Of a stretch of 37,488 nt of DNA, positions 3,682-19,672 are shown piece by piece; the first letter of the stretch is position 1, and each line of letters opens with the position of its first letter. Source of the stretch: Planctomycetota bacterium (lineage in GTDB: Bacteria; Planctomycetota; Planctomycetia; Gemmatales; Gemmataceae); NCBI GenBank assembly GCA_021324515.1, contig JAJPIY010000340.1, positions 1 through 37,488 on the forward strand. The letters are read 5' to 3'. A program made the position numbers and the translations under genes. The notes beneath the pieces are model-generated. The model worked only from the letters and a program-made list of their open reading frames with translations. It was not told the DNA's origin and searched no databases.

Positions 3682-6600
3682 TCACTGCTTCCAATGCCGG
3701 GCCATTCGTGTCAATTGCCGGCGCACCCCGTCGGGGCGCAACCATCCGAAGCCGGCGTAGCCGAGTGTCCGCAATAGGGCCTGAAAATCGTTCTCCGTCC
3801 ACCTGGGCGATCCGTGACGTTTCAGCGACGGCGTGATTTCTTTCTCGGCCGGCCCCGATGGGAACAAACGAGCTAGCGGCAAGCGCCCGCGTTTACGCGG
3901 CAGCGGCTCGGCATAAGGGGTGTGCAGCGCGAGAAACATCTCCAGATAGGGCCGCGCGTCTTCGTCCCAGTCGGCTGGCTCCCTGTCGGTCATCTCCCAA
4001 TCGAGGAGCCACAAACGTAGGGTGCGGTCGGCGCTGCCCGACAGAGCGAAGCGGCCGTCGGCACTGAGCGAGACGCTGGTGACGGCGTCGCCGTGGCCGG
4101 CGAAGGTGCGTAGACATTGCCCGCTGGCCACTTCCCATAATTTTACGGTAGCATCGGTACTGCCGGAGAGAACATAGCGGCCATCGAAACTCAGGCAGAC
4201 CGAGGTAACAGCGCCATAGTGTCCCTCGAAAGTGCGCAAGCGACGGCCCGTATTCAATTCCCAGAGATGGACCGCACCAGACTGTACAAAGTGGCCATTG
4301 TCGCGCTGAATGACGGCTTGTCCGCAGCCGGTCAGGGCGAAGCGGCCATCGATGCTAAGGGCCACAGCGGTAACGGCCTGGGACTGCTCCTCGAAGAGCG
4401 GCAGACAATGGCCGGTCGAGGTCTCCCATACTTTCAGTTGTCCACTGGTGAAGAGTCGCTCGCCGTCGTTGCGGATGAGGAACAGCGCGCTGCCGGATAG
4501 GGCGAGGCGGCCGTCGGCACTGAGGGCGACGGAATGTACCGGGCCAGTATGGCCGTGCAAGACCCGGAGCAGCCGGCCGGCGGACACGTCCCATAAGTGG
4601 ACTGTGCCGTCGATGCTGGCGGAGACAGCCAGACGCGCATCGCCGCTCCAGGCCACGGACGTGAGCACATCGAGATCTTGGCGGCAGCTGCGTAGGCAAT
4701 CGCCCGTCCGCACGTCCCACAGCTTCAGGGTCGCATCCGTGCTGACAGAGAGCGCGAAGCGGCCGTCGCCTGAAAGGACTGCGGCCGTGACACTTCCCAT
4801 ATCGCCTTCGAGCGTGTGCAGGCAGCGGCCTTCATCTGGTTGCCATAATTTCAGAGTGCGATCGGCACTGCTGGACAGGGCAAGCCGGCCATTCTGGCTC
4901 AAACACACCGAGGTCACCGCTTCGGTGTGTTCCGCGAGGAGGGGGCCGCCCCAAGCGCCTTGCAGTGCTTGTCGCGGCAAATGGACGTAGAGATTGCTCC
5001 ACAGAGTCATCGCTTCCGGGCGGCGGCTGTGCCCCGGCTGAGAACGCGCTTCGCGGAGGTGCTGCGCGGCACGCACCGCCTGGCCAGCGGCCAACGCCCG
5101 CCGGGCCAGTTTCAAAGAACGCTCATACTCCGTCCACGCGGACAAAACGAGGTCGCTGGGCAATACGCGCGACAACACATAGGGGGCCGATTGTTCGCTG
5201 GGCACAACCCACAGCGCCAGCGTTGTATCGGCGCTGGCCGACGCCACCTGCCGTCCCGACCCAACCAAGCAAAGCGAATGTACAGTCCCCGCGTGGCCTT
5301 CCAGAGTAGCCAGACAGCGCCCGGTGTTGCGTTGCCAGATCTTGAGGGTGCGGTCTTCGCTGCCAGACAGAACATAACCCCCGCCCGCGCTGAAACAGAC
5401 CGAGGTCACACTGCCTTGGTGGCCCTCGAAGACACGGAGACAGCGGCCGGTAGCGGCCTCCCAGAGCCGAAGCGTGCGATCGCTGCTGCCGGATAGCACG
5501 TAACGGCCGTCGCTGCTCAAGACGGCCGCCAGCACCTTGTCCGTGTGGCCGGAAAAGGTCCGCAGTCGTTGCCCCTTGTCGGCGTCCCAGAGGAGGAGCT
5601 TGCGATCGCGGCTGCCGGACAAGATGTGGCGGCCATCACTGCTGGCGCTCACAGCGAGAACTGGTCCGTCGTGGCCGTCCAGCGTGCGCAGACAAAGGCC
5701 CGCGGCTGTGTCCCACAATTTGATGGTGCCGTCGCCGCCGCCAGAGAAGGCGAGTCGGCCGTCGCCGCTCAGGGCCACAGCCAGCACCCAATTGCGGTGC
5801 CCTTCGAGGACGTGAAGACATTTGCCACTTTCGAGCTGCCATAGCCGCAAAGTGTGGTCGGCGCTGCCGGACACGGCAATCCGGCCGTCGGCGCTGAGGG
5901 CAACACTGGTGACCCACTCGGCGTGGCCTTCTAAGGTGCGCAAGCAGCGGCCGCTTAGCGTGTTCCAGAGTTTGAGCGTGCCGTCTGCGCTGCCGGACAG
6001 GAGCGAACGCCCTTTGCGTCCGGCGCCCACTGAGGATACCCAACCGTTATGTCCTAGGAAGCGGCGTAGCAGTCGGCCGCTGGTGTGCAGACACTCCTGA
6101 GCCGCTTCCCGTACAGCGCGCACCTCGTCCAGCTCCGTGCTGGAGGCCGGCACGCGCTGGATCGTCTCCAGGGCCGCACGCCAATCGCCTTCCTCCAATT
6201 GCACACGCGCCAACAGATACGCAGGCAGCCATTCTCCGGCGTGCGCCTGGGCGACTTCCTGGAGCTGTTGCCGTAGCGCTTCCCCATTCAGACGCCCTGA
6301 GCGCCAGTGCGTCAGGCCGAGGTTGTACGTCGATTCGGGATGCTGCGGGTTGATGGTCAAGGCTTCCTGCCAGAGCTGCTCTGCTTCGTCCTGTTTGTGC
6401 AAGTCACACAGGGACAGGGCACGGTTGTTGAGAGCGTCGGCCCGTGCCTTGGCGGCATGGGGCGCCGGTCGGGGATAACTGCGGCCAAACGTCCGGGCGT
6501 ACAACTGTTGCAAGACCGCGACGATTTCCAGCATGTCGCGTGGCCGATCTTCTGGATTGGCCTGGAAGCACTGGTGGAGCAGTTCGGCCAAGGGCGGCGG

Positions 6601-7545
6601 CATCGATGGCAAGCCCGCATCCGCCCCACGCTCCAGATAATCGGCCAAGATACTGGCCGCCAGATAGCCGGCCGACCAGTAAGTTGATCCAGTGAACATA
6701 TGAAGTAAGGATACCCCCCAGCTCCAGATGTCGGTCTTGCGCGATACGGGCCGACCCTGGACCTGTTCCGGCGAGCAGAACGCTGGCGTCAATCCGCCGG
6801 CACTGACGAGGATCGTGCCTTGGGGTGATCCCGTCCTTCCTGCCTCTCTCCCGCCAGAGGAGAAGGGGCCGCCTCTTGCTCCTCTTATGGAGGAGGACTG
6901 GGGTAGGAGGATGCCGCCCTGCGCCTTGGCCATGCCGAAGTCCGTGACCTTGGCGATGCCGTCGCTGGTCATCAGGACGTTGCCCGGCTTAACGTCGCGA
7001 TGCACCAGGCCTTGCTCGTGGGCGTGCTGCAAGCCCCAGGCAAACTGAATGGCGATGTCGAGAATGCGTTCCAGAGCGCGTGTCGGCCCGCCGGCGTAGA
7101 GCTTGCGCGAACGAATCCACTCCGCCAGGCTGCCGCCGGCAACGTACTCGGCGAAGACATGCGGAATACCGTTGAGGCGACGGATGTAATGACAGGTTGT
7201 CAGGTAGGGATGCAGGCCGAGCTTGACCCAGGTTTCCGCTTCGCGCTCGAAGTCGGCCTTGTCTTGTTCGCTTTGAAAAAACTCGCGGCGGGGACATTTA
7301 ACGGCCAGGTCCATGTTCCAGCCGCGATGGTGGACGCGATAGACCAGGCCGCGTCCTCCGCTGGTGAAGACCTCGCGCACCTCATAGAGATCGAGAAGAA
7401 CATCACCGGGCTTCCACAAGCCGGCCGTCGTTTCTTCATCCGCTTGGCGGCCTTCATAAGTGCGTGTCGAAGGCAAAGATGGAGCGGACGGCTCATCGGA
7501 GAGCCACCACCAAGCCGAGGAACGTTTGGAAGAGCTATCGCCCAT
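3682..7545 (-). CDS. Serine/threonine protein kinase with TPR and two WD40 propellers
   Basis: A 1287-residue protein counted from the ATG at 7545. The kinase domain (about 52-350) keeps the key residues: Lys83 in AVKCP, Asp184 in HRDVKPGNV and Asp202 in DFG, so it should be active. The activation segment carries about 31 extra residues (roughly 212-242) before TPAFCSPEQ. A TPR-like region (about 370-480) follows, then seven WD40 repeats (about 493-790), a helical linker, and seven more repeats (about 880-1200). Repeats end in 'SGS.D.T.KLW'. Fourteen repeats make two complete propellers, probably docking platforms. No transmembrane segment is evident, so it is probably cytoplasmic. The frame is open to a GTG at 7707 overlapping the secretin stop, but that extension translates a dispersed hairpin repeat, so I start at 7545, although its ribosome binding site is weak. 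Confidence 0.92.
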   Translation of the reverse strand: MGDSSSKRSSAWWWLSDEPSAPSLPSTRTYEGRQADEETTAGLWKPGDVLLDLYEVREVFTSGGRGLVYRVHHRGWNMDLAVKCPRREFFQSEQDKADFEREAETWVKLGLHPYLTTCHYIRRLNGIPHVFAEYVAGGSLAEWIRSRKLYAGGPTRALERILDIAIQFAWGLQHAHEQGLVHRDVKPGNVLMTSDGIAKVTDFGMAKAQGGILLPQSSSIRGARGGPFSSGGREAGRTGSPQGTILVSAGGLTPAFCSPEQVQGRPVSRKTDIWSWGVSLLHMFTGSTYWSAGYLAASILADYLERGADAGLPSMPPPLAELLHQCFQANPEDRPRDMLEIVAVLQQLYARTFGRSYPRPAPHAAKARADALNNRALSLCDLHKQDEAEQLWQEALTINPQHPESTYNLGLTHWRSGRLNGEALRQQLQEVAQAHAGEWLPAYLLARVQLEEGDWRAALETIQRVPASSTELDEVRAVREAAQECLHTSGRLLRRFLGHNGWVSSVGAGRKGRSLLSGSADGTLKLWNTLSGRCLRTLEGHAEWVTSVALSADGRIAVSGSADHTLRLWQLESGKCLHVLEGHRNWVLAVALSGDGRLAFSGGGDGTIKLWDTAAGLCLRTLDGHDGPVLAVSASSDGRHILSGSRDRKLLLWDADKGQRLRTFSGHTDKVLAAVLSSDGRYVLSGSSDRTLRLWEAATGRCLRVFEGHQGSVTSVCFSAGGGYVLSGSEDRTLKIWQRNTGRCLATLEGHAGTVHSLCLVGSGRQVASASADTTLALWVVPSEQSAPYVLSRVLPSDLVLSAWTEYERSLKLARRALAAGQAVRAAQHLREARSQPGHSRRPEAMTLWSNLYVHLPRQALQGAWGGPLLAEHTEAVTSVCLSQNGRLALSSSADRTLKLWQPDEGRCLHTLEGDMGSVTAAVLSGDGRFALSVSTDATLKLWDVRTGDCLRSCRQDLDVLTSVAWSGDARLAVSASIDGTVHLWDVSAGRLLRVLHGHTGPVHSVALSADGRLALSGSALFLIRNDGERLFTSGQLKVWETSTGHCLPLFEEQSQAVTAVALSIDGRFALTGCGQAVIQRDNGHFVQSGAVHLWELNTGRRLRTFEGHYGAVTSVCLSFDGRYVLSGSTDATVKLWEVASGQCLRTFAGHGDAVTSVSLSADGRFALSGSADRTLRLWLLDWEMTDREPADWDEDARPYLEMFLALHTPYAEPLPRKRGRLPLARLFPSGPAEKEITPSLKRHGSPRWTENDFQALLRTLGYAGFGWLRPDGVRRQLTRMARHWKQ
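6820..6912 (-). repeat. Possible repeat-derived in-frame insert in the kinase activation segment
   Basis: This segment encodes Ser/Gly/Arg-rich, low-complexity residues between DFGMAKAQGG and the GT...TPAF motif. The DNA holds C-rich/G-rich blocks that pair imperfectly (CCTCTCTCCCGCC against AGAGGAGAAGGGG), resembling the CCCTCTCCC/GGGAGAGGG palindromes that recur between genes in many GC-rich bacteria. The match to such a family is inference from memory of the pattern. Confidence 0.4.
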
Positions 7546-7642
7546 CGTTATCACGCCGGCGTTGGCTGAGTCACACGGACTCACACAAGAGCGATCTACC
7601 TTCCTGTAAGGGTAACGCAAGCCGGCGTTGAGGTCTACCAGG

Positions 7643-7700
7643 GGTTGGCCGCGAGCCGTAGGCGAGCGCACTCGCCCTCCGCTACGGCCCGCGGCTAACC
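7643..7700. repeat. REP-like hairpin between secretin and kinase genes
   Basis: Arms 7643-7661 and 7682-7700 pair over 19 positions with one mismatch and one G-T wobble. An inner perfect stem GGCGAG/CTCGCC (7661-7666 and 7671-7676) closes on a four-base loop. Positions 7648-7669 recur exactly, in inverse orientation, at 34187-34208, so this belongs to a dispersed family. The hairpin begins three bases after the secretin stop codon. Confidence 0.75.
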
Positions 7701-7703
7701 ATT

Positions 7704-10700
7704 TCACTCGCTGACGGCAGGCGGCGGGCGGTAGCCGGTCTGCGTTTCTTCCTCTTCGGCCTGGATGATGATGCGTGGTGTGACCATGATGAGCAAGCTC
7801 TCGGCAGAGCGTCCATAGCCGATGTTGCGGAACAGACGGCTCAGATAGGGGATCTTGCTCAGCACCGGCGGGCCGAACTCATTGCGGCCCTCAGAGAGGC
7901 GCTTCAAGCCGCCCATCAGTACGGTGCCACCATCCGGCACTGCCACCGTCGTCTGTACCGAGACGCGCGACAGGCGCGGCTGCTGGATGAATTGCGTGAA
8001 CACCACCGGCTGGCCGGTCGCGGTACCGTCGAACAGAGGGAAGATCGGCGTCACCACCGGGAACAGATTGACTTCGCCGTTGACCACGTTGGCCAGGCTG
8101 GGGTTCAACGACAGACGCACGAAACGGCGATCGCCAGAGATGACCGCGTTGATGGTCAGGATGATATTCAAGGGGAACAACGTGGTAATCGGGTTGTAAA
8201 CCACCTGGCCGAAGCCGCCGTTAATCACGGAGACGCCGATGGTGAAGAACTGGTAGTCCTGGACGGAGATGTTGGCCGTCTGACCGTTGAACAGCGTCAG
8301 CTTGGGCGCCTGCATGACGTTGGTACGGGTGTCGCCGGCCACGGCCTCCATGAACAGGAACACCTGAATGTCGCTGAGGAACGCCAGGCCCATCGTCAAG
8401 CCGCCGAAGCCGGGGATGCCGGGGTAGCCGCCGAACGGCGGTACAGCCTGAGGATAGGTCAGCTGCGTAATCGGAATATTCAGGTCACTGGTCAATGTAC
8501 CAGCCGGCGTTAGACCGGAGATCAAGTTATTGGGGGCGAAGTAATTGATGTAGCCCGGCTGAGCGAACTGGCCGGAGACCAATTCCGGCTGGAGCTGGAG
8601 GGCAGATCGGCTCTTGTTGAGAATGTTCATATTGAAGTTGACGCCGATACGTTCAAAGAAGTCCTCGGCAATGCTGATGAACTTGACCTCGACGGCCACT
8701 TCCTGGTCGATCAACCGCCGCAAGGCATTGAGCAAGTCCTGAATCTGGTCCTGAATGTCGGGCGTCTGGTTGACGACCAGGGCCATAGTCAAGGGATGGA
8801 AATCGATGGTCCCCGAGCCGCCCTGCTCGGCCCAGCTGTGCGGTGCAATGGTATTGGTGATGAGTTTAATGAGCATGTCTTCATGCGTCTGGGGACGCTG
8901 TTTGGTCACCTGGACATTGCTGCTGGAAGGTTCGGAAGCGAAATTGCCCGGTTGCGGCGCATTGGACATCGAACCGCCGGCAGGCACCGCCGGTAGGCCA
9001 ACCGGCTGACCGTTCAACATTCCGGTCATGGCGGTCGGGGGCATCGTTTGGCTTAGCGCTTGATTGACGTTGACCATGCCGAGCTGGCTTGCGGCATCCG
9101 GCATAACGCCGATCTGGCCGAAATTCTCCACGGCGATGACCAGGTCGGCCACCGGATAGACCACTTGCTTGAGTTTGCCACGCGCCTGATCTTCCGTAGT
9201 GATCTTCAACACGTCGTCGGCCACGACGTAGGTTAGATGCACCAGGTTGAGCAGCAGTTTCAACGCCGATTTAAGAGAGATATTGTCAAGTTTGATCGTC
9301 ACCGGCGCATCCAGCTGGATGCCTTTGTCGGCCAGGGCTGGCTCGTCGATGAAGATGTTGATGCCCTGATCGCCGCGAATGTAATCGATGACCTCGCGCA
9401 GCGGCTGGTTGGTGCAACTGAGGCTGATTGGCGCCGTCAGTTTGCGCTCGATGTTGCGCTCTTCCGCCGAAATGCGCTGCGGAGACACTCCGTCCAGCGA
9501 CTTGCGATTGCGAATCCTTTCCAAACGGCTTTTGTCTTTGGTGAAAGCGATGTCGTTTGAGACCGCGTCCGGTTCGCCGATGTTATCGACATCGTGCATC
9601 GCTTCGATGAACACGTCTTCCTTGCGCTGCTTATCACTCTCGTACTGAGAATGGTTGCGCTGATACTTGGCCATGGTGATGGCGGCGGCGGCCATGGGAT
9701 TGTCCGGATCCAGCTCCTTGATCCGCAGTGCCACCATCTCGGCTTCCGGATACTTGGCGTCATGGAACAGCTCGTTGTATTGTTTCATCAGTTGGGCGAT
9801 GTTTTGCTGCTTGACCTGCTCGGCGTTCTTGGCCTTGGCCATGTCCGATTTGACCTTCCGCGATTTTTCATCGAAGCGGCTGTTGGTCAATTCGGCCTGC
9901 GCCTTGAGGAGTTGGAATTGTTGCAAGCGTGAATCGATCGGCCGCCTCAACAGCGCCAATTGTGTGGGATCAAGCTGCTCTTCCGATAGCCGGGCGAGGT
10001 ATTCCTGAAGCATGTCCACGGCCAGGTCGGTCTGTCCTGTGCGGAAACGTTCCAGGGCTTGCGCTTGGACGTTCAGCCCTTCGGTGCGAAGCTGTTGGAA
10101 CTTGACTTCACGCATGGCGCGCGTGCGGGCCAGCAGCGATTGGCTTGGATCGTCGGTGGCGCGAGCTTGCCCGGTGTCGCTAGACAAGAGAGTCTGTGCT
10201 GGCGCCTCCGACCGATAGGCGCCCGTGAGGGCAATACCGCTGCCGCGGGCATTCGGCTGCATCTCTGGGGTGTTGAGCAACTCGCGCAGCCGGGCGCGGC
10301 GGCGGTCGTCGAGTTTGTTGATATCGATGCTAGCCAGGATCAGACTGGCCCGGCGATAATCGTGGTGCTGATAAGCCGCCACGACCTCGTCAAAAGTGCG
10401 GTTAGCACGCCGTCGATTTTGCGCATCCTCTTCGGCGTCAATGGTGCGCAGCACGGCCAAGCCAGCTTCGCCGGCGCCGAGCTTGACCGCTTCTTCGGCG
10501 AAACGGCGCGCGTTGGCCGTCTGACCGCTGCGCAATTCCAGGCGAGCCTGTTCGAGCAACTGCTCCGTGCTAGAGGCCCCGTGAGACGAGTCCTTGGATC
10601 CCGAAGTCGGGGCCTGGAATTGGGCGCTCACCAGAGTAGTGGTGCCGCTGCCGCGCAATTGGTTGACCATCTGCATGGTGGCGTCGATCGGCTGCAAGTC

Positions 10701-12395
10701 CAGGCCGAAAGCGACGGCCAGCTGCCGAGCCTGGATCAGATCGCGCTCGGCGTCTTGGCAGCGCGTTATGGGCGCCTGGGTTCCGTAACGGAGCGTTTCG
10801 CCAGCATGATGGACCAAGCTGTCGATGCGCTGGCGGGCCAGGAAAACAAGTTGTTGATAGATCTGGTTCGGTGTTTCCTCGTCGATTCGGAAAGACACGC
10901 CAAGCCGCTGGACCTCAGTGATCTTGTCGCGTGCTTCCAGGAGCCGATTTTGCTGTTGCAACAGCTTCGCTTCCGCCATCAACTGGCGCGCACGCATCTG
11001 TCCGTCCCTTGTCGGTGGGGCGGGCGGCACCGTGGTTGGGGTGGCAGGCTGATAAGCCGCGTGGGGCGTCGCTGCTGCCATGTCGTTCCCTTGCGGCGGC
11101 TGCGGCATCTGCCGGAGCGAATGGGCTTGTGCGAGGTCGGCTGCTCCGACCGCAGGGGGCGGATTGTTCGGTGCTCCGGCGCTGTTGCCACTTGAGGCGA
11201 GCGGGCCGCGGCTCAGGTCCGCTACTTGGCGCGGCGTTGTCGGCGGTTCGGGCAGCTTGACACGGCGTTCCTTCTGACGCGCCACCTGGATGTCTGCCAG
11301 CAGTTTATCGGGGCGATCGCCGAGGTCCCAGATACTATAGGGTCCATGTTTGGTACGTGCTTCGTAGGCCAGTTTCTCGGCGCTGTCGTAATCTTTCTTC
11401 TCAAAGCGACGCCGCGCTTCGGCGAGCAATTCCACCGACTGATGCTTGTCGCGTTGCGAGCGCGCGCGATCCACATCAGCCTGGAACTTGTCGGGCGTAT
11501 CCTCGAAGAAGAGTCCCCAATGAATGTGACGGGCTGCGCGAAGCCGTGCGGCTGTCTTGTTGGCTTCCTCCAATTGGCCTTTGGCAAGCTGTTCGCGTCC
11601 TTGTTTCAAGAGGGCCAGCGCCTCCTCCTTGGTCTTGATGGGAGCGGCTGGTGATGGGCCGGCCTCACCGGCTGGCGCGGCACGGTTGCCATCCATGCGG
11701 GCAATATCTTCCAGCAGCCGAACGGGATTGTCTTCGCTCCAGCTCAGGTCCGCATTTAGAGCAGAGGCTTGCTCAGCGCATTTGCGCGCCTGGGCGACAT
11801 CGCCGCGGCCCAGGGCTTCCCGCCCCTGCCGTACCAAGGCACGCGCTTTCTCCGTGTTCGTTGAGAGGAGCGTTGGAGACGTTCCCGGCGGAACATGCAT
11901 TCGTTGGCACAGGGTCTGGAAGCGCTGTTTGTCGGCGGGGCTGAGGTACAGTTCTTTGGCGGTGACTTTCTTGAGGAGGGCAGCGGCTTCCGCAGGCCGA
12001 CCGTGTTGGAAGGCCGAATCCGCCAAACCGAGCTGTTCGCGGGCCTCGCGCTGCGCCTGGAGGGCCAGGGTATTGGCGGCAATTCGCCGCTCCAGCTCCC
12101 GCCGTTCCTCTGGTGTCAGATCGTTGGCACGGCTTTGCGCTTCCCGGTAAAGAGTAGCAGCCTTATCGTAATCGCCGAGCCGTTCTGCATCGATGCCGGC
12201 GTTGAGCGCTAGCCGCGCCCGTGAACTTCGGCCGCTCGTCTGGGCGACTATCCGCTCGGGGCCATCCGTGGCCGCTGGCAGCGAGATAAGGCCGGTGTCC
12301 GGGCCGGCGAGCAACGCCAGCGGTTGGGTCGCTGCCCCTACCAGAAGGCCCCCGACGAAATCGATCCATTTTCGCTTCTGTGCCCTAGCCACCAT
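7704..12395 (-). CDS. Giant secretin (type II/III secretion GspD-like) with long TPR-like N-terminus
   Basis: A 1563-residue protein, more than twice the usual secretin length. A basic n-region and hydrophobic stretch (about 14-31) form a signal peptide. Residues about 60-980 are helical, Ala/Gln/Arg-rich TPR-like repeats ('A..L...G...A......A'), presumably periplasmic. An STN/N0-like domain lies at about 985-1080, an N-type domain at about 1150-1240, and the secretin core at about 1290-1550, with VPDGGTVLMGG near 1488 and the typical LSKIPYLSRLFRN loop after it. It should form an outer-membrane channel. The start is ambiguous: AAGGAGG (12404-12398) sits only two bases from the ATG at 12395 and five from a GTG at 12392; a start at 12428 is also open but has no ribosome binding site and gives an overlong n-region. 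The kinase gene follows downstream. No other secretion genes are in the window. Confidence 0.92.
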   Translation of the reverse strand: MVARAQKRKWIDFVGGLLVGAATQPLALLAGPDTGLISLPAATDGPERIVAQTSGRSSRARLALNAGIDAERLGDYDKAATLYREAQSRANDLTPEERRELERRIAANTLALQAQREAREQLGLADSAFQHGRPAEAAALLKKVTAKELYLSPADKQRFQTLCQRMHVPPGTSPTLLSTNTEKARALVRQGREALGRGDVAQARKCAEQASALNADLSWSEDNPVRLLEDIARMDGNRAAPAGEAGPSPAAPIKTKEEALALLKQGREQLAKGQLEEANKTAARLRAARHIHWGLFFEDTPDKFQADVDRARSQRDKHQSVELLAEARRRFEKKDYDSAEKLAYEARTKHGPYSIWDLGDRPDKLLADIQVARQKERRVKLPEPPTTPRQVADLSRGPLASSGNSAGAPNNPPPAVGAADLAQAHSLRQMPQPPQGNDMAAATPHAAYQPATPTTVPPAPPTRDGQMRARQLMAEAKLLQQQNRLLEARDKITEVQRLGVSFRIDEETPNQIYQQLVFLARQRIDSLVHHAGETLRYGTQAPITRCQDAERDLIQARQLAVAFGLDLQPIDATMQMVNQLRGSGTTTLVSAQFQAPTSGSKDSSHGASSTEQLLEQARLELRSGQTANARRFAEEAVKLGAGEAGLAVLRTIDAEEDAQNRRRANRTFDEVVAAYQHHDYRRASLILASIDINKLDDRRRARLRELLNTPEMQPNARGSGIALTGAYRSEAPAQTLLSSDTGQARATDDPSQSLLARTRAMREVKFQQLRTEGLNVQAQALERFRTGQTDLAVDMLQEYLARLSEEQLDPTQLALLRRPIDSRLQQFQLLKAQAELTNSRFDEKSRKVKSDMAKAKNAEQVKQQNIAQLMKQYNELFHDAKYPEAEMVALRIKELDPDNPMAAAAITMAKYQRNHSQYESDKQRKEDVFIEAMHDVDNIGEPDAVSNDIAFTKDKSRLERIRNRKSLDGVSPQRISAEERNIERKLTAPISLSCTNQPLREVIDYIRGDQGINIFIDEPALADKGIQLDAPVTIKLDNISLKSALKLLLNLVHLTYVVADDVLKITTEDQARGKLKQVVYPVADLVIAVENFGQIGVMPDAASQLGMVNVNQALSQTMPPTAMTGMLNGQPVGLPAVPAGGSMSNAPQPGNFASEPSSSNVQVTKQRPQTHEDMLIKLITNTIAPHSWAEQGGSGTIDFHPLTMALVVNQTPDIQDQIQDLLNALRRLIDQEVAVEVKFISIAEDFFERIGVNFNMNILNKSRSALQLQPELVSGQFAQPGYINYFAPNNLISGLTPAGTLTSDLNIPITQLTYPQAVPPFGGYPGIPGFGGLTMGLAFLSDIQVFLFMEAVAGDTRTNVMQAPKLTLFNGQTANISVQDYQFFTIGVSVINGGFGQVVYNPITTLFPLNIILTINAVISGDRRFVRLSLNPSLANVVNGEVNLFPVVTPIFPLFDGTATGQPVVFTQFIQQPRLSRVSVQTTVAVPDGGTVLMGGLKRLSEGRNEFGPPVLSKIPYLSRLFRNIGYGRSAESLLIMVTPRIIIQAEEEETQTGYRPPPAVSE

Positions 12396-12830
12396 GGCCT
12401 CCTTCATTGATTGCACCAACATCTCCATTGGGAAAGATCTCTACCCGCCCGCAAGCCCAAGCAAGGGTAAGTCCTTGACCTGTGCTTGCGTGGGCTAGGG
12501 AGGACCAACCAAAGGAGACCCCCGTTGCCCCCATGCCGTCCCCGTAAGCCTTCCGCGCCATCTCGAACCGGGCCTCCCCAGCCCGATTCGGAAACTTTAG
12601 CCTTTTGTTTCACTCAAGTTTCGGACGGAAAAGCGACGCGGCTATAACCACGACCCGCAGACAGGTCAAGACCGATTCTACGCTGCGGGGTACGCCGCCG
12701 ATACAAATTGGACTTTCGCATGACCTGCCGATTCGCTATGCGGTTTGCGGGGATGGCGATGAGTGATGCTTCGTAAAACAGATGCCAACCGAATCGAACC
12801 GTTTCGGAGAAATGATGACGAGTCGGCAAA
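12396..12830. other. Divergent intergenic region between secretin and HEAT genes
   Basis: About 435 bases without a convincing gene. On the secretin side, 12447-12495 can fold into an interrupted stem. The rest must hold two divergent promoters; I could not pick out a clear pair of boxes. Short minus-strand frames in 12404-12829 look like random GC-rich translation. Confidence 0.55.
12447..12495 (-). promoter_or_regulatory. Possible structured leader of the secretin gene
   Basis: Read on the minus strand, GCCC/GGGC, GCAA/TTGC and CAAGG/CCTTG pair in nested order within 49 bases, ending about 50 bases before the start codon. It may be a leader structure or a remnant of a repeat. There is no match to a riboswitch class I know. 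Confidence 0.3.
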
Positions 12831-14959: not shown

Positions 14960-15148
14960 ATGATACGTCGCGGATTGTGGCTGTTCATCGGCTCCGGTTT
15001 GCTGGGTTTGTTGAGCGGCTGTCATTACTGCCAGGGTCGTTGCGATTGTTTGGTTTATCCTCTCGATCATGGCACGCCGGCGCCGTTTGTCAAACCAGCC
15101 CTGTCAGCAGCGCCGACCCCGCCACTTGCACCTGTGGCGAGGCAATGA
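14960..15148 (+). CDS. Small lipoprotein
   Basis: A 62-residue protein with a signal of lipoprotein type: Arg3-Arg4, a hydrophobic core (5-18) and LSGC at 18-21, making Cys21 the lipidated residue. The mature part is only about 42 residues, with two further Cys (24 and 28) and a C-terminus rich in Pro and Ala. The ATG at 14960 is preceded by AGGTAGGGAAG; an upstream extension in the same frame has no signal. The family is unknown; small lipoproteins of this type are common and often poorly conserved. It is convergent with the TerB-like gene. Confidence 0.65.
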   Translation: MIRRGLWLFIGSGLLGLLSGCHYCQGRCDCLVYPLDHGTPAPFVKPALSAAPTPPLAPVARQ

Positions 15149-15162
15149 AGGCGCGTTTTTCC

Positions 15163-15211
15163 ACCGGTCCGCAGCGCCGGCAAGAAAGGCCCTTGCTGGT
15201 GCGGCGGACCG
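15163..15211. terminator. Long hairpin between convergent lipoprotein and TerB-like genes
   Basis: Arms of 21 bases (15163-15183 and 15191-15211) pair with one mismatch and two G-T wobbles around a seven-base loop. It lies between two convergent stop codons, so bidirectional termination is likely. No T-tract follows in either direction, so a repeat origin is also possible. Confidence 0.55.
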
Positions 15212-15226
15212 GCAGGAAACCACGGT

Positions 15227-15631
15227 TCAACAGGCGGCACATTCCTGATAGAGCCGCTCAAATTCCGGACTGGTTTTGGTGGCTGCCTTCTTGAGACGCT
15301 TGAGGAACTTCTTCTCATTGTCGTCGATCTTGCCATCGGCGAAGAGCATCTTGCGCAGCCAGTTGGCTTCCTTGGCGTCGATCTTGCCGTCGCGCAGTAC
15401 GTTCTGCTCGATGGCCTTGAAGAACAGGGTTTCAAACTTGGGATTGAGCGGGACTTTCTTGGCCCTGGCTTTTTTCTGGGCGCTTTGGCGCAGTTCGATG
15501 AGGAACGCGACTTCCTGGGCATCGATTTCTTTGTCAGCCCATAATTCCTTTTGCAGAACACGGACCTCCGCATCATCGATCGTGCCGTCGGCCAGGATGG
15601 CTTCCAGGGCCAATTTGCGGAAATCTGCCAT
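15227..15631 (-). CDS. TerB-like protein with four DG-I-D-E loops
   Basis: A 134-residue helical protein without a signal peptide, so probably cytoplasmic. Four similar acidic loops are seen: ADGTIDDAE (Asp15-Glu22), ADKEIDAQE (Asp33-Glu40), RDGKIDAKE (Asp81-Glu88) and ADGKIDDNE (Asp99-Glu106). Within each half the loops are 18 residues apart and the halves are offset by 66, which points to an internal duplication. TerB-family proteins (tellurite-resistance/stress) have such 'DG.I...E' helices and may bind metal at the membrane edge. The loops also resemble the second half of EF-hand loops but lack the first two Asp ligands. The ribosome binding site GGGAGG precedes the ATG at 15631. The C-terminus ends CAAC. 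Confidence 0.75.
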   Translation of the reverse strand: MADFRKLALEAILADGTIDDAEVRVLQKELWADKEIDAQEVAFLIELRQSAQKKARAKKVPLNPKFETLFFKAIEQNVLRDGKIDAKEANWLRKMLFADGKIDDNEKKFLKRLKKAATKTSPEFERLYQECAAC

Positions 15632-15766: not shown

Positions 15767-18700
15767 TTAAGCAGATTCGCGCAGGGTAGAAAGGACGGAT
15801 TCTTCACGGACTTGACGGACGAAGCGTTCCCAGGCCGCTGTGTTGGCCGGCGTCTCGGCACCAGCACGCACCAGATCTTCTAAAAGCGCGGCGGCATTAT
15901 CGTAGCGCTGCGCTGCGTCATCGTGATGGAAGCGGTCCAGAATGCTTTGCAATCCAGGCGGCAGTCCCTTGGCCTTACCGCTCTTACTGAGTGGCGTCAT
16001 GGCGATCCAGCCGGCCGCAATATGTCCCAGGGCGGCGAGGTCGCGGGCCGCGGACGGCTCGTCATCTTCCTGCGGCGGGGGCACGGCCAGCCACCGCGGC
16101 TCCCCCAGGCCGCACAGCTTCAGCACGCCCTCGCGCGTGAACACGAAAGAGGAGGCATGCAAGTGGCCGTGGACCAGCCCCGCCGTATGCGCCGCGTGCA
16201 AAGCCTGAGCGGCTTGCGACAGCAAGCGCAGCCACACCCCCGGAGCGCCGGCCAGTACGGGCCATTCCGTGCTCGGCAGGCCGTGCAGCCATTCTTGCAG
16301 CGCCGCTGGGCGCCCCGCAATTTCCAGCACTTCCAGCGTGGCCGCCACGTTCTCATGCTGCACCGTCGCCGCCGCTGCAAAACGCTGACGAAACTCGTCC
16401 GGACGAACCGCGTCCTCCATCTCCGATTCGGCCAGATGACGCAGCAACAATTCGCAATTGCGGCGTGGATCGAAGACGCGATAAACCGCCTCGCGCGGCG
16501 TCGCTTGCAGCCGATCGATGACGCGCACGGGACCGAGTACCAGACCTTCGAGATTGCCGGCTTCAATAAGGGCCATTTGAAAGAGCGTCAGATAATTGCC
16601 GGCCAACAACAATTGCCGTAGGGAACGCCGTTGCCGCCGTGCCTCCAGCAACAGCGCCGTCAGCGTGTCGCTGTCCACCAATTCCAACGACCGGAGCAAA
16701 TCACCCAGGTGCTGGTCGCCTGGCTCCACTTCGGTCATGATCGGCAAGATGCCGCGCTCGTCTTCCTCGGCAGCCCCTTGGCGGGATGGGGAGTCGGAGG
16801 AAACGTTGGCGTCGAGGCCGGCCAATTCACGCATTTTACGACGATACCATTCTTGCATCTCGTTTAAATGACGCTCAACCTCGCTGCGGCGTTCCCGAAC
16901 GATCTGTTCTTGTTGCTGCAATTGTTCGGCCTGTTGCGCCAGGCGGGCCGAGGCGCCGGCGATCTGTTGGGCCTGTTCGTCGACTTCGCTAGCCCGCTGT
17001 TCCAGCCGCGTCTCATTCAACTGCATTGCTTGTCTCAACTCGGCCAGTCGTCCCTGCCATTCGATGACCTGTTGGCGGAAGGCAGCCACAGCCAAGCGAT
17101 GCTCATCGCGGGCGACGTGCAAGTCCAATTCCTGTTGCCGGACGCGCTCGACCTCGGCTTGGAAATCGCGGCGCATCCGTTCCATGTCCTCGCGGCTCTG
17201 GCGGATGTAGCCGTGAATCTCGGCCAGATGTTCGCGCAATTGCTCGCGCGCCTGCGTCAAGCGGTCCAGGGCTGCCGCGGCCCGCGCCTCCAGTTCCGGT
17301 AATTGCCGGCTCAACCCCAGGATCTCTTGCCGGCTCGCTTCCAGTTCGGCGCGGCAGCGTGCGGCCTCATCCTGCGCCTTCTGACGCTCGACCTCGAAAG
17401 CAATGCGCTCCGAGGCCAACACTTGCCGCTGGCCGCCTAGTGAAGCCTGGATTTCCTCAATGCGCTGCTGCTCGGCTCGAAATTGCTTTTCCGCCTCCGC
17501 AAGCTGCCGCGCTCGTTCATCCAGTTCCGCCGCCCGTGCGCCCAATTCCTGCCGTGCCAGGTCTAGACGGGAGTCGGCGAGCTGCCGGTCCTGTTCGAGG
17601 ATCTTCGCCTGCTCGCTTAACCGGGCCGCCTCGTCTCGGAGCCGCTGTTCTTCTTCCGCTTGCCGACGCTGTTTCTCGTGGATTTCTTCGTCGCGGCGGC
17701 GCACTTGTTCTTGCAACGCGGCCAAGGCCTGCTCGGCTCGCGCCAGGGCCAACTCACGCTCGTGCAACGCCTGCTGCTCGCTCTGGAGTTTCTCTCTCTC
17801 CTGTTCCAGCTGGTTCGCACGCGCTGTCAGCAAAGCGTTCTGTTCAGCGAATTCGGCGGCCGCTGTCCGCACCTGCTCTTGCTCGGCGCGCAACTGTTTC
17901 TCCTCGTCGTCCAGCGCCGCGCGCGCTTGCCGTAGTTGGGCGACCGCCGCTTCCAGTGTGGCCTGGCGTTCCTCGAAGCGCCGCCGTTCTTCCTCGTGCA
18001 ATTCCCGTTCATTGTCCACCTCGGCGCGAATTTTCTCCGCCTCGGCCAGCCGAGTCCGCAGATCGTTTTCGCTGGCTTCCTGTAAAGCGCGCTGATCGCT
18101 GAGCGCCTGCTCTTGCCGCCGTAATTCCTCGCGCATCCGTTCTAGTCGCGTGCGCAGCGTTGCCAGCATGGCCTGCTGTCCCTCTAGCGCCGCCGCACGC
18201 TGGTCCAACTTGGCGCTTTGTTCCTCGTACTCTTTTTTCTGCTTGGCCAGGGCTTCTGTCTCGCTCGCCAAACGATTGTGCCATTCGTCGAGCTGGGCCG
18301 CTTGTTCTTCCAAATCCCGGCTATCGCGCTGCAATTGCTCGTAGCGGCGGTCGATCTCCAGGGCGCTGGCCTGCAACTGTTTCGCGCGCTGTTCCAGCGT
18401 GGCTTGAATGCGATCGAGCCGCACCAGATCGGTCTGATGTTGTTTCTGACCCTTCTCCAAGGCCGCTTCTGCTTCAATCAATTTCGCCTCGCGTTCCTGG
18501 ACTTCTTTAAAGCGCTCGCTCAGGTCGCGCTGTACTTCTTGCTGGCGGCTGACGATGAGGCGATGCTGCTCTTCCAGCAGTTGCCGCTCCCGTTGGATTT
18601 GTTCGCCGCGGCCCTCGATCTCGATCTGTTTCTGCTCTAACTCCTGCTGCCGGGCTGCCAATTCGGCCTCGGCCGCCTCTAGCCGCTGTTTGCGTTGTTG

Positions 18701-19435
18701 CAAGCGCCGGGCCGTTTTGTGGATGGCCTGCTGCTGTTTGATGAGCCGTTCGCGCCGCTCGTGATAGCGCTGATAAAGCTGCTGCCGAATCTCCGCCAGC
18801 TCGCGGCGCAGCGAGGCGTCTCCCTCTTTCTGCTTACGTAGCTCCTCATTCTGCATCGCGATTTCGTGGAGCTGGGCTTGCAATTGCGCACGCTCGGTGT
18901 CCCAGGCTTGGGCGCGTTTTTCTAACTCGGCACGCGCCCTCGCTAGTTCCTGATCGCGCTGTTGTAAGCTCACGGTTTGTTGCCGGCATTCGGTCTCCAA
19001 CTGTTCGAGCCGCGCTTGCCATTTCTGTTCGCGCTCCCCGAATTCGGTCATTCCTGCGCTCGACCGTGGATGCAGCCGAGTTGCCGATTGCACCGTCAAG
19101 ACGATCTCGACATTGCTGATAACGATGGTATCGCCATTGCGGAGATAGGCGGCAGAGACGGCCTTGCCGTTAACAAGGATCGGCAGCACGGGCGCCAGCC
19201 GTCGCAGAGTGGCGGCGTCGGCGGTACGACCAATGAGGCAAATAAGGGGCGGCAGGTTAAGGCCGGGCAAACGCAGGTCGCAGCCGGGCACGCTGCCGAT
19301 GAGGAAGCCGCCGTCGCCGACTTCATAAGTGACGGCCCGGCCGCGGCCGGAACGTACTTCGAGCCGAACCGTCGCCAGCGCGTTGTCGCCGTCATCTAGC
19401 GGCGGCGGTCGAGATGGAGACGACGCTTGGGTCAT
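15767..19435 (-). CDS. Degenerate FHA, long coiled coil and pseudokinase fusion
   Basis: A 1222-residue protein from the ATG at 19435; the frame extends 31 codons further, but the FHA fold begins after this Met. An FHA-like domain (about 20-116) keeps the 'G....D..L' and 'NG..V....L..GD.I' parts but lacks the Arg after the first Gly (IGSVPGCDLRL) and the Ser/His that contact phosphothreonine. Residues about 140-885 are a heptad-rich coiled coil of Glu, Gln, Arg and Ala. A linker like that before planctomycete kinases (LLAGNYLTLFQ near 930) leads to a kinase-like domain (about 960-1200). There HRD is replaced by HGH (about 1088), DFG by a CGLG stretch, and the VAIK Lys is absent, so it should not phosphorylate. 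It is probably a long scaffold. No membrane segment is apparent. Confidence 0.88.
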   Translation of the reverse strand: MTQASSPSRPPPLDDGDNALATVRLEVRSGRGRAVTYEVGDGGFLIGSVPGCDLRLPGLNLPPLICLIGRTADAATLRRLAPVLPILVNGKAVSAAYLRNGDTIVISNVEIVLTVQSATRLHPRSSAGMTEFGEREQKWQARLEQLETECRQQTVSLQQRDQELARARAELEKRAQAWDTERAQLQAQLHEIAMQNEELRKQKEGDASLRRELAEIRQQLYQRYHERRERLIKQQQAIHKTARRLQQRKQRLEAAEAELAARQQELEQKQIEIEGRGEQIQRERQLLEEQHRLIVSRQQEVQRDLSERFKEVQEREAKLIEAEAALEKGQKQHQTDLVRLDRIQATLEQRAKQLQASALEIDRRYEQLQRDSRDLEEQAAQLDEWHNRLASETEALAKQKKEYEEQSAKLDQRAAALEGQQAMLATLRTRLERMREELRRQEQALSDQRALQEASENDLRTRLAEAEKIRAEVDNERELHEEERRRFEERQATLEAAVAQLRQARAALDDEEKQLRAEQEQVRTAAAEFAEQNALLTARANQLEQEREKLQSEQQALHERELALARAEQALAALQEQVRRRDEEIHEKQRRQAEEEQRLRDEAARLSEQAKILEQDRQLADSRLDLARQELGARAAELDERARQLAEAEKQFRAEQQRIEEIQASLGGQRQVLASERIAFEVERQKAQDEAARCRAELEASRQEILGLSRQLPELEARAAAALDRLTQAREQLREHLAEIHGYIRQSREDMERMRRDFQAEVERVRQQELDLHVARDEHRLAVAAFRQQVIEWQGRLAELRQAMQLNETRLEQRASEVDEQAQQIAGASARLAQQAEQLQQQEQIVRERRSEVERHLNEMQEWYRRKMRELAGLDANVSSDSPSRQGAAEEDERGILPIMTEVEPGDQHLGDLLRSLELVDSDTLTALLLEARRQRRSLRQLLLAGNYLTLFQMALIEAGNLEGLVLGPVRVIDRLQATPREAVYRVFDPRRNCELLLRHLAESEMEDAVRPDEFRQRFAAAATVQHENVAATLEVLEIAGRPAALQEWLHGLPSTEWPVLAGAPGVWLRLLSQAAQALHAAHTAGLVHGHLHASSFVFTREGVLKLCGLGEPRWLAVPPPQEDDEPSAARDLAALGHIAAGWIAMTPLSKSGKAKGLPPGLQSILDRFHHDDAAQRYDNAAALLEDLVRAGAETPANTAAWERFVRQVREESVLSTLRESA

Positions 19436-19672
19436 ACGAGGAACCTGGTTTCGGAACCTGCGCGCACGGGCGAGCGAGCCGAATTGGAACGTATTCTGTC
19501 GATTTTGGAAAGGCCAACTCGTTTGCACCGGACAATACTGCGAACCCTTTTTATCTACTTTGTCCCATCGCGATTGCTTTCTGTACCCGATAGAAGAATT
19601 CCTATGCCCTCAAACCGAATGGCCCTCGCCCCTGCCTTCCCGATGACTTCCATGCTGGTCCTCTGCTCGTAT

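Follow-up and report, generated by a model that had tools for sequence, protein, structure and literature searches.

Two cases are described in which a bacterial FHA domain binds a pseudokinase. In mycobacteria the FHA domain of FhaA is recruited by phosphorylation to MviN, whose pseudokinase domain forms part of a membrane flippase (PMC12599244, PMC11898655). In type VIIb secretion the degenerate FHA domain of YukB/EssC docks the pseudokinase YukC/EssB; the FHA domain of YukB lacks the contact residues, and the authors suggest that binding is independent of phosphorylation (PMC9600267). Here we describe a gene that carries domains of both kinds on a single chain, with a long coiled coil between them. 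It lies in a 37,488-nucleotide stretch of DNA (hereafter the window: positions 1 to 37,488 of contig JAJPIY010000340.1, assembly GCA_021324515.1) from a planctomycete of the family Gemmataceae, order Gemmatales, whose genome is assembled as 419 contigs. The reading we favour, at a probability of roughly 0.6, is that the protein serves as a soluble cytoplasmic scaffold or tether, a docking rod of about 100 nm, rather than as a signalling enzyme.

Like the mycobacterial pair, the window protein combines a pseudokinase fold with an FHA fold, and FhaA is its closest FHA domain by Z score, albeit in a tie. In MviN and FhaA, however, the domains lie on separate proteins, whereas here both are on one rod and the FHA domain lacks its contact residues. 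The YukC/YukB system is a membrane secretion machine with its domains on separate chains, and the excerpt of PMC9600267 mentions no such long rod. MviN-type and EssB-type pseudokinase proteins possess a membrane-spanning segment, while by hydropathy alone the window protein shows none, its highest 19-residue mean being 1.39 and falling within the FHA core. Among the bacterial pseudokinase families ActPs1-3, GLW, CP1, DLHK and DYD, five are diverged in all three catalytic motifs (PMC12599244); the window protein resembles those five in its three diverged motifs, a likeness drawn from their description and not from a family profile. Neither 'planctomycet' nor 'coiled' occurs in the text of PMC12599244 (0 times each), and no paper on an FHA-coil-pseudokinase rod protein was found among the matches listed in open-licence PMC text.

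The open frame containing the gene runs from a GTG at 19528 to 15767 and encodes 1253 amino acids (aa). Since the alignment with two relatives, L040 and L041, begins at the Met encoded by the ATG at 19435, this ATG is the most likely start, and residues are numbered from it throughout (Table 1).

Table 1. The gene and the parts of its product, in window coordinates
Feature	Position	Strand	Remarks
FHA - coiled coil - pre-kinase - pseudokinase gene	15767..19435	-	1222 aa from ATG; another possible start, GTG, lies upstream at 19528
N-terminal FHA-fold domain, residues 22-118	19082..19372	-	without canonical phosphothreonine contacts; Arg position (19292-19294) is Ser
Coiled-coil rod, residues 125-874	16814..19063	-	heptad periodicity, heptad-sized indels, lengths
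Conserved C-terminal coil segment, residues 711-874	16814..17305	-	Pro713, Trp793, Trp863; length constancy
Variable hinge, rod to C-terminal head, residues 875-904	16724..16813	-	dN/dS 0.35 over 875-900 versus L039
Pre-kinase helical module, residues 905-970	16526..16723	-	contains the protein's most conserved 20-residue block
Pseudokinase domain, residues 971-1200	15836..16525	-	HGH (HRD position) 16163-16171; GLG (DFG position) 16103-16111
C-terminal tail [RK]x?[STA][AG], here RESA	15770..15781	-	extreme C terminus

The two heads

The original prediction was that both ends of this protein are disarmed: an FHA domain lacking the Arg and the Ser/His that contact phosphothreonine, and a kinase-like domain with HGH in place of HRD and CGLG in place of DFG, the two joined by a coiled coil of about 750 residues. 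As an observation this is confirmed. We collected 55 loci from relatives, of which 13 that were cut by contig ends or lacked the FHA motif were excluded; the resulting full-length set comprised 43 rows including the window, and dropping four near-copies gave alignments of 39 rows. The structure models and residue counts below refer to these 39 sequences (the window protein and 38 orthologues), with residue positions read off profile alignments to FhaA for the FHA domain and to StkP/PknB for the kinase.

Comparison of the predicted structures with FHA and kinase folds, which the original prediction had proposed, recovered both. The AlphaFold model of the N-terminal domain has a mean predicted local distance difference test score (pLDDT) of 87.7, and the best solved match is the FHA domain of mycobacterial FhaA (3poa; Z 14.5, root-mean-square deviation (rmsd) 1.9 Å, 96 aligned), tied with Ki67, EmbR, OdhI and other FHA domains. 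At the level of this model, an FHA beta-sandwich at the N terminus is confirmed. In Pfam, the window protein matches the FHA-like family PF16697 only weakly and under the cut-off; the FHA family is reached at E≤0.01 by 22 of the 39 members, the window's own FHA domain not being among them. FHA domains contact phosphothreonine through the Arg of a GR motif and the Ser and His of SxxH. In the window protein GR is replaced by GS and VSRRH by LPPLI, and not one of the 39 sequences retains any of the three contacts. The Arg position is occupied by Ser, Gly, Thr, Ala or Glu in all of them, the Ser position by Pro (36), Ala (2) or Thr (1), and the His position by Val, Ile, Leu or Ala throughout.

The model of the C-terminal head has a mean pLDDT of 90.8 and is best matched by the kinase PknA (4ow8; Z 21.8, rmsd 2.9 Å, 228 aligned), so that a two-lobed kinase fold is likewise confirmed as far as prediction goes; kinase matches leave most of the pre-kinase helices uncovered. 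The intracellular domain of Rv3910 (3otv) appears among the Foldseek matches at rank 50 (E 4.6e-10). Pfam finds no kinase match in the window protein and only three of the 39 heads reach Pkinase at E≤0.01; kinase surveys based on Pfam would mostly miss this type of head.

The replacement of HRD by HGH and of DFG by GLG is as originally described, and to it we can add the loss of the VAIK Lys (Arg in 38 sequences, Cys in one, Lys in none) and of the alpha-C Glu (Arg in 34/39, Glu in none). The orthologues have not retained these residues either, apart from the DFG Asp in 2/39, so the outcome that would have refuted the original prediction, retention in orthologues, did not occur. The HRD Arg is Gly in every sequence and the HRD Asp is found in none (0/39). 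The window protein has no Gly in its Gly-rich loop, and at any one tabulated position at most three of the 39 rows do. In a nine-row alignment the activation segment and APE are missing from five Gemmatales rows, and are present in three rows from a second order (family f5, described below) and in an intact kinase. Invariant residues flank the lost motifs, namely the Gly at the HRD Arg position and a Pro following the DFG position, and the heads carry HG and GxGEPxW as signatures.

The rod, and selection along the protein

The coiled coil joining the heads held up as predicted, over residues ∼125 to 874. With hydrophobicity averaged over the 43 rows, the best period lies between 3.48 and 3.56 in all 13 segments tested between residues 121 and 930, each exceeding the 99th percentile of shuffles. 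By this periodicity the protein contains a long heptad rod such as is found in intermediate-filament-like coiled-coil cytoskeletons. Insertions and deletions relative to the window protein between residues 205 and 874 are mostly of 4, 7, 11, 14 or 18 residues (90 of 129), although many of these events are shared by descent and so are not independent. Two segments hardly vary in length. Among 36 rows, 33 have exactly 281 residues in the segment 320–600 and three deviate by a single heptad; in the segment 711–874, 31 rows have exactly 164 residues and the remainder are 7 or 14 residues shorter. One relative, L145 (G079), has a short coil.

The rise of a helix is ∼0.15 nm per residue, from which 670–750 residues would give a rod of roughly 100–110 nm. 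Pro713 is present in 42 of 43 rows and Trp793 and Trp863 in all 43, which points to a conserved kink followed by a conserved patch; on the strength of the conserved Pro713, we take the rod not to be a single unbroken helix.

Ratios of nonsynonymous to synonymous substitution rates (dN/dS) were obtained for two pairs. Between the window protein and L039 (dS 0.84) the overall ratio is 0.094, with values of 0.100 for the FHA domain, 0.065–0.111 along the coil, 0.079 for the pre-kinase module, 0.078 for the pseudokinase and 0.347 for the hinge. Comparison with L040, in which synonymous sites are nearer saturation, gives 0.113 overall, 0.06–0.16 by part and 0.48 for the hinge. Purifying selection is equally strong on the disarmed heads and on the rod; the low ratios in both therefore argue that the protein is not decaying.

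Distribution and relatives

The C-terminal head is matched (E≤1e-15) in 86 of the 102 genomes of the order, and in 65 of the 71 good ones. There is one match per genome in 85 of the 86 positives, G040 having two pieces of one frame. Coil profiles, built from 36 rows (A4) and 10 rows (A5), find the rod at E≤1e-10 in 83/102 genomes of the order and in none of the 295 other genomes of the class; at E≤1e-6, the only match among 392 genomes of the phylum is the window's own genome. The coil profile also fails to detect the three-genome order containing family f5, which does possess the protein but whose coil bears no recognisable similarity; other diverged forms may likewise have escaped it, and a lack of coil matches by itself says little about absence. 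Within the reach of these searches, the protein appears confined to Gemmatales and this one small order.

The relatives' loci are mostly filed under Gemmata, Gemmataceae, Zavarzinella or Fimbriiglobus, or plainly under Planctomycetota, Planctomycetia or Planctomycetaceae. Two (L052 and L058) are filed as Singulisphaera and one (L077) as Isosphaera, which we take for labelling or binning errors, and the contig of L081, filed as a Bacteroidales metagenome-assembled genome yet carrying a Gemmatales-type copy of the gene, is probably misbinned or mislabelled.

In the second order, all three genomes have long frames detected by the FHA profile. Their products have the same FHA-coil-pre-kinase-pseudokinase layout with GxGEPxWL or a close variant, keep the FHA His and the APE region, and exceed the Pfam cut-offs for both FHA and Pkinase. 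In a tree of 43 kinase regions, which has several long end branches, a branch supported at 100/100 separates 22 Gemmatales pseudokinases and the three of f5 from the rest; the f5 proteins are a less degenerate form within the same clade. In an RpoB tree, Gemmatales, f5 and a further order, f3, fall on one side (96/98); the approximately unbiased test does not reject Gemmatales and f5 as sister groups (p-AU 0.368). Order f3 was also tried as a source of relatives and set aside: a search of 45 genomes with an f5 pseudokinase (E≤1e-8) matched 44, and among 25 loci examined by script HRD occurs with DxG in 23 and the GEPxW signature in none, the pattern lying at an unlikely place in L220 and L229.

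The original prediction treated the losses of reader and writer as joint, and on this point the relatives do not support it. Family f4 contains five FHA-coil proteins (L139, L164–L167) that resemble the window protein in the order of their parts, in a similar pre-kinase stretch and in an FHA domain whose Arg has become Ser. Unlike the window protein they possess HRD and DFG, with APE present in L139. An FHA domain without its Arg stands in these proteins beside an intact kinase; the loss of the Arg is therefore not tied to that of the kinase, and the two losses were probably separate events. These kinases form a clade (100/98) nested within other kinases of their own family, for which reason the f4 proteins may represent a parallel assembly rather than an ancestor.

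By eye, a stretch resembling the pre-kinase module precedes active kinases in the source genome and in other planctomycete genomes. One such active kinase in the source genome is L003. Adjoining it in the kinase-region tree, on a long branch, is L008 (contig C372, same genome), which has a similar pre-kinase stretch and reads, by eye, PAGPLN for HRD and NAG for DFG, and which is apparently another pseudokinase.

The gene's neighbourhood was considered as a clue to a pathway and rejected, as no neighbour is widely conserved. Just downstream, at 15067-15576 on the minus strand, is a gene for a 169-aa protein without a Pfam match; L040, L041 and L043 have related frames in the corresponding position, and that of L040 contains ADGKIDxxE-type repeats. 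Farther along the window, also on the minus strand, a gene for a kinase with many WD40 repeats (3682-7707) adjoins one for a 1574-aa protein that has a secretin domain at its C terminus (7704-12428).

Possible functions

Heads that remain under selection without reader or writer residues, together with a rod whose register is kept in most relatives, fit a tether or scaffold. We infer that two chains pair, a dimer being what the heptads suggest, into a ∼100 nm rod kinked at Pro713. The FHA-fold head would dock a protein partner by its shape, without reading phosphothreonine, and the pre-kinase/pseudokinase head would likewise dock a partner by shape, without phosphate transfer. YukB-YukC offers a precedent for docking between a degenerate FHA domain and a pseudokinase that does not depend on phosphorylation (PMC9600267). 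The rod would fix the spacing between the two heads, and the conserved patch of the C-terminal coil and the C-terminal tail would offer extra docking points. A structural role had been proposed from the outset, and we find it partly supported: selection of equal strength on heads and rod fits a structural or docking function, while the FHA domain may have an alternative ligand face, since in it Arg28 is invariant and Arg78 is present in at least 90% of sequences.

Several results weigh against this interpretation. Arg28 could support some other mode of phosphate binding, judging by its invariance, and the DFG Asp kept in L056 and L058 speaks mildly against total loss. The C-terminal head is not matched in 16 of the 102 genomes, including 6 of the 71 good ones. 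Nor is the length of the rod uniform, the coil core being 670 residues in 12 of 43 rows and ranging from 636 to 812. Frames in genus g25 are only 750–773 aa (three genomes with a match), those in genus g35 are 877–1156 aa (again three), and in L142 (G070, genus g30) little of the coil and N-lobe appears to be left beside the FHA domain, a remnant of the C-lobe and the tail at the C terminus; these three genera argue against one universal rod. The largest clusters of shared neighbouring genes cover only 10 of 56 loci, many of them on short contigs, and consist of generic families.

With both heads on the same rod, head-to-tail assembly readily suggests itself as a hypothesis. Here the FHA domain of one rod would dock the pseudokinase of the next, unphosphorylated, to build filaments or a lattice from ∼100 nm units in the manner of intermediate filaments. 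MviN-FhaA (PMC12599244, PMC11898655) and YukC-YukB (PMC9600267) are two bacterial precedents for an FHA domain binding a pseudokinase, FhaA ranks first by Z among FHA domains, in a tie, and the loop GSxPGCDLRLPG falls within the 20 residues of the FHA domain that are best conserved. We nevertheless regard this assembly as doubtful, since the MviN-FhaA contact requires phosphorylation, L140 (G082) is an FHA-coil protein without any kinase, and G081 and G083–G086 have, in addition to the full protein, frames of 732–820 aa with an FHA match. In its fullest form, a polymer of Gemmatales cells in which disarmed FHA domains and kinases on ∼100 nm rods link up as filaments or as a lattice in the cytoplasm, the idea is no less doubtful. 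We consider it unlikely that the protein is instead an allosteric regulator, its pseudokinase controlling one or more active Hanks kinases while its FHA domain uses an altered phosphate site to recruit targets. In favour of such a regulator are the pre-kinase-like stretch seen by eye ahead of the active kinase L003 in the same genome, the 98 to 140 Ser/Thr kinases predicted in Gemmataceae proteomes (PMC11032199), and the invariant Arg28 and near-invariant Arg78 of the FHA domain. Against it, this function does not call for a rod ∼100 nm long whose register is conserved, and no neighbouring gene is widely conserved.

Last, the protein might be the decaying vestige of an FHA-coil-kinase enzyme. 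The relatives can be arranged in a graded series, from an intact kinase with an Arg-less FHA domain (f4) through the partly degenerate f5 form, whose kinase is still above the Pfam cut-off, to the fully degenerate Gemmatales protein, and shortened forms occur in genera g25, g30 and g35. We think this very improbable. Decay is contradicted by selection in the window's genus (whole-protein dN/dS ∼0.09 versus L039 and 0.11 versus L040), and the protein is retained across the order with invariant residues beside its lost motifs; moreover the intact FHA-coil kinases branch within their own family and so may not be the ancestor. The related orders do offer a series for how a kinase may become a structural part, in which single descent is not established.

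The original prediction also looked to the unusual cell plan of planctomycetes at large. Its scope was too wide: in these searches the protein is found in Gemmatales and one order of three genomes, not across the phylum, and it is therefore unlikely to contribute to a cell plan common to planctomycetes. A role in the cell architecture of Gemmatales is possible. Imaged cells of Gemmata and Tuwongella, both Gemmatales, have heavily invaginated membranes (PMC8567305), and in a group with such unusual internal membranes this is a widely kept, strongly constrained protein with a single match per genome. It unites on one rod two kinds of pseudo-domain for which mutual binding is known in bacteria, and provides a concrete gene with which to ask what organises the Gemmata cell.

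The C-terminal tail, proposed above as a docking point, conforms to [RK]x?[STA][AG] in 50 of the 52 complete C-termini among the relatives' loci; the same pattern fits 14 of 448 neighbouring control frames, some of them spurious. In family f4, two small FHA proteins lacking the Arg (L174 and L176) terminate in RASA and RVSA, similar to the rod protein's tail.

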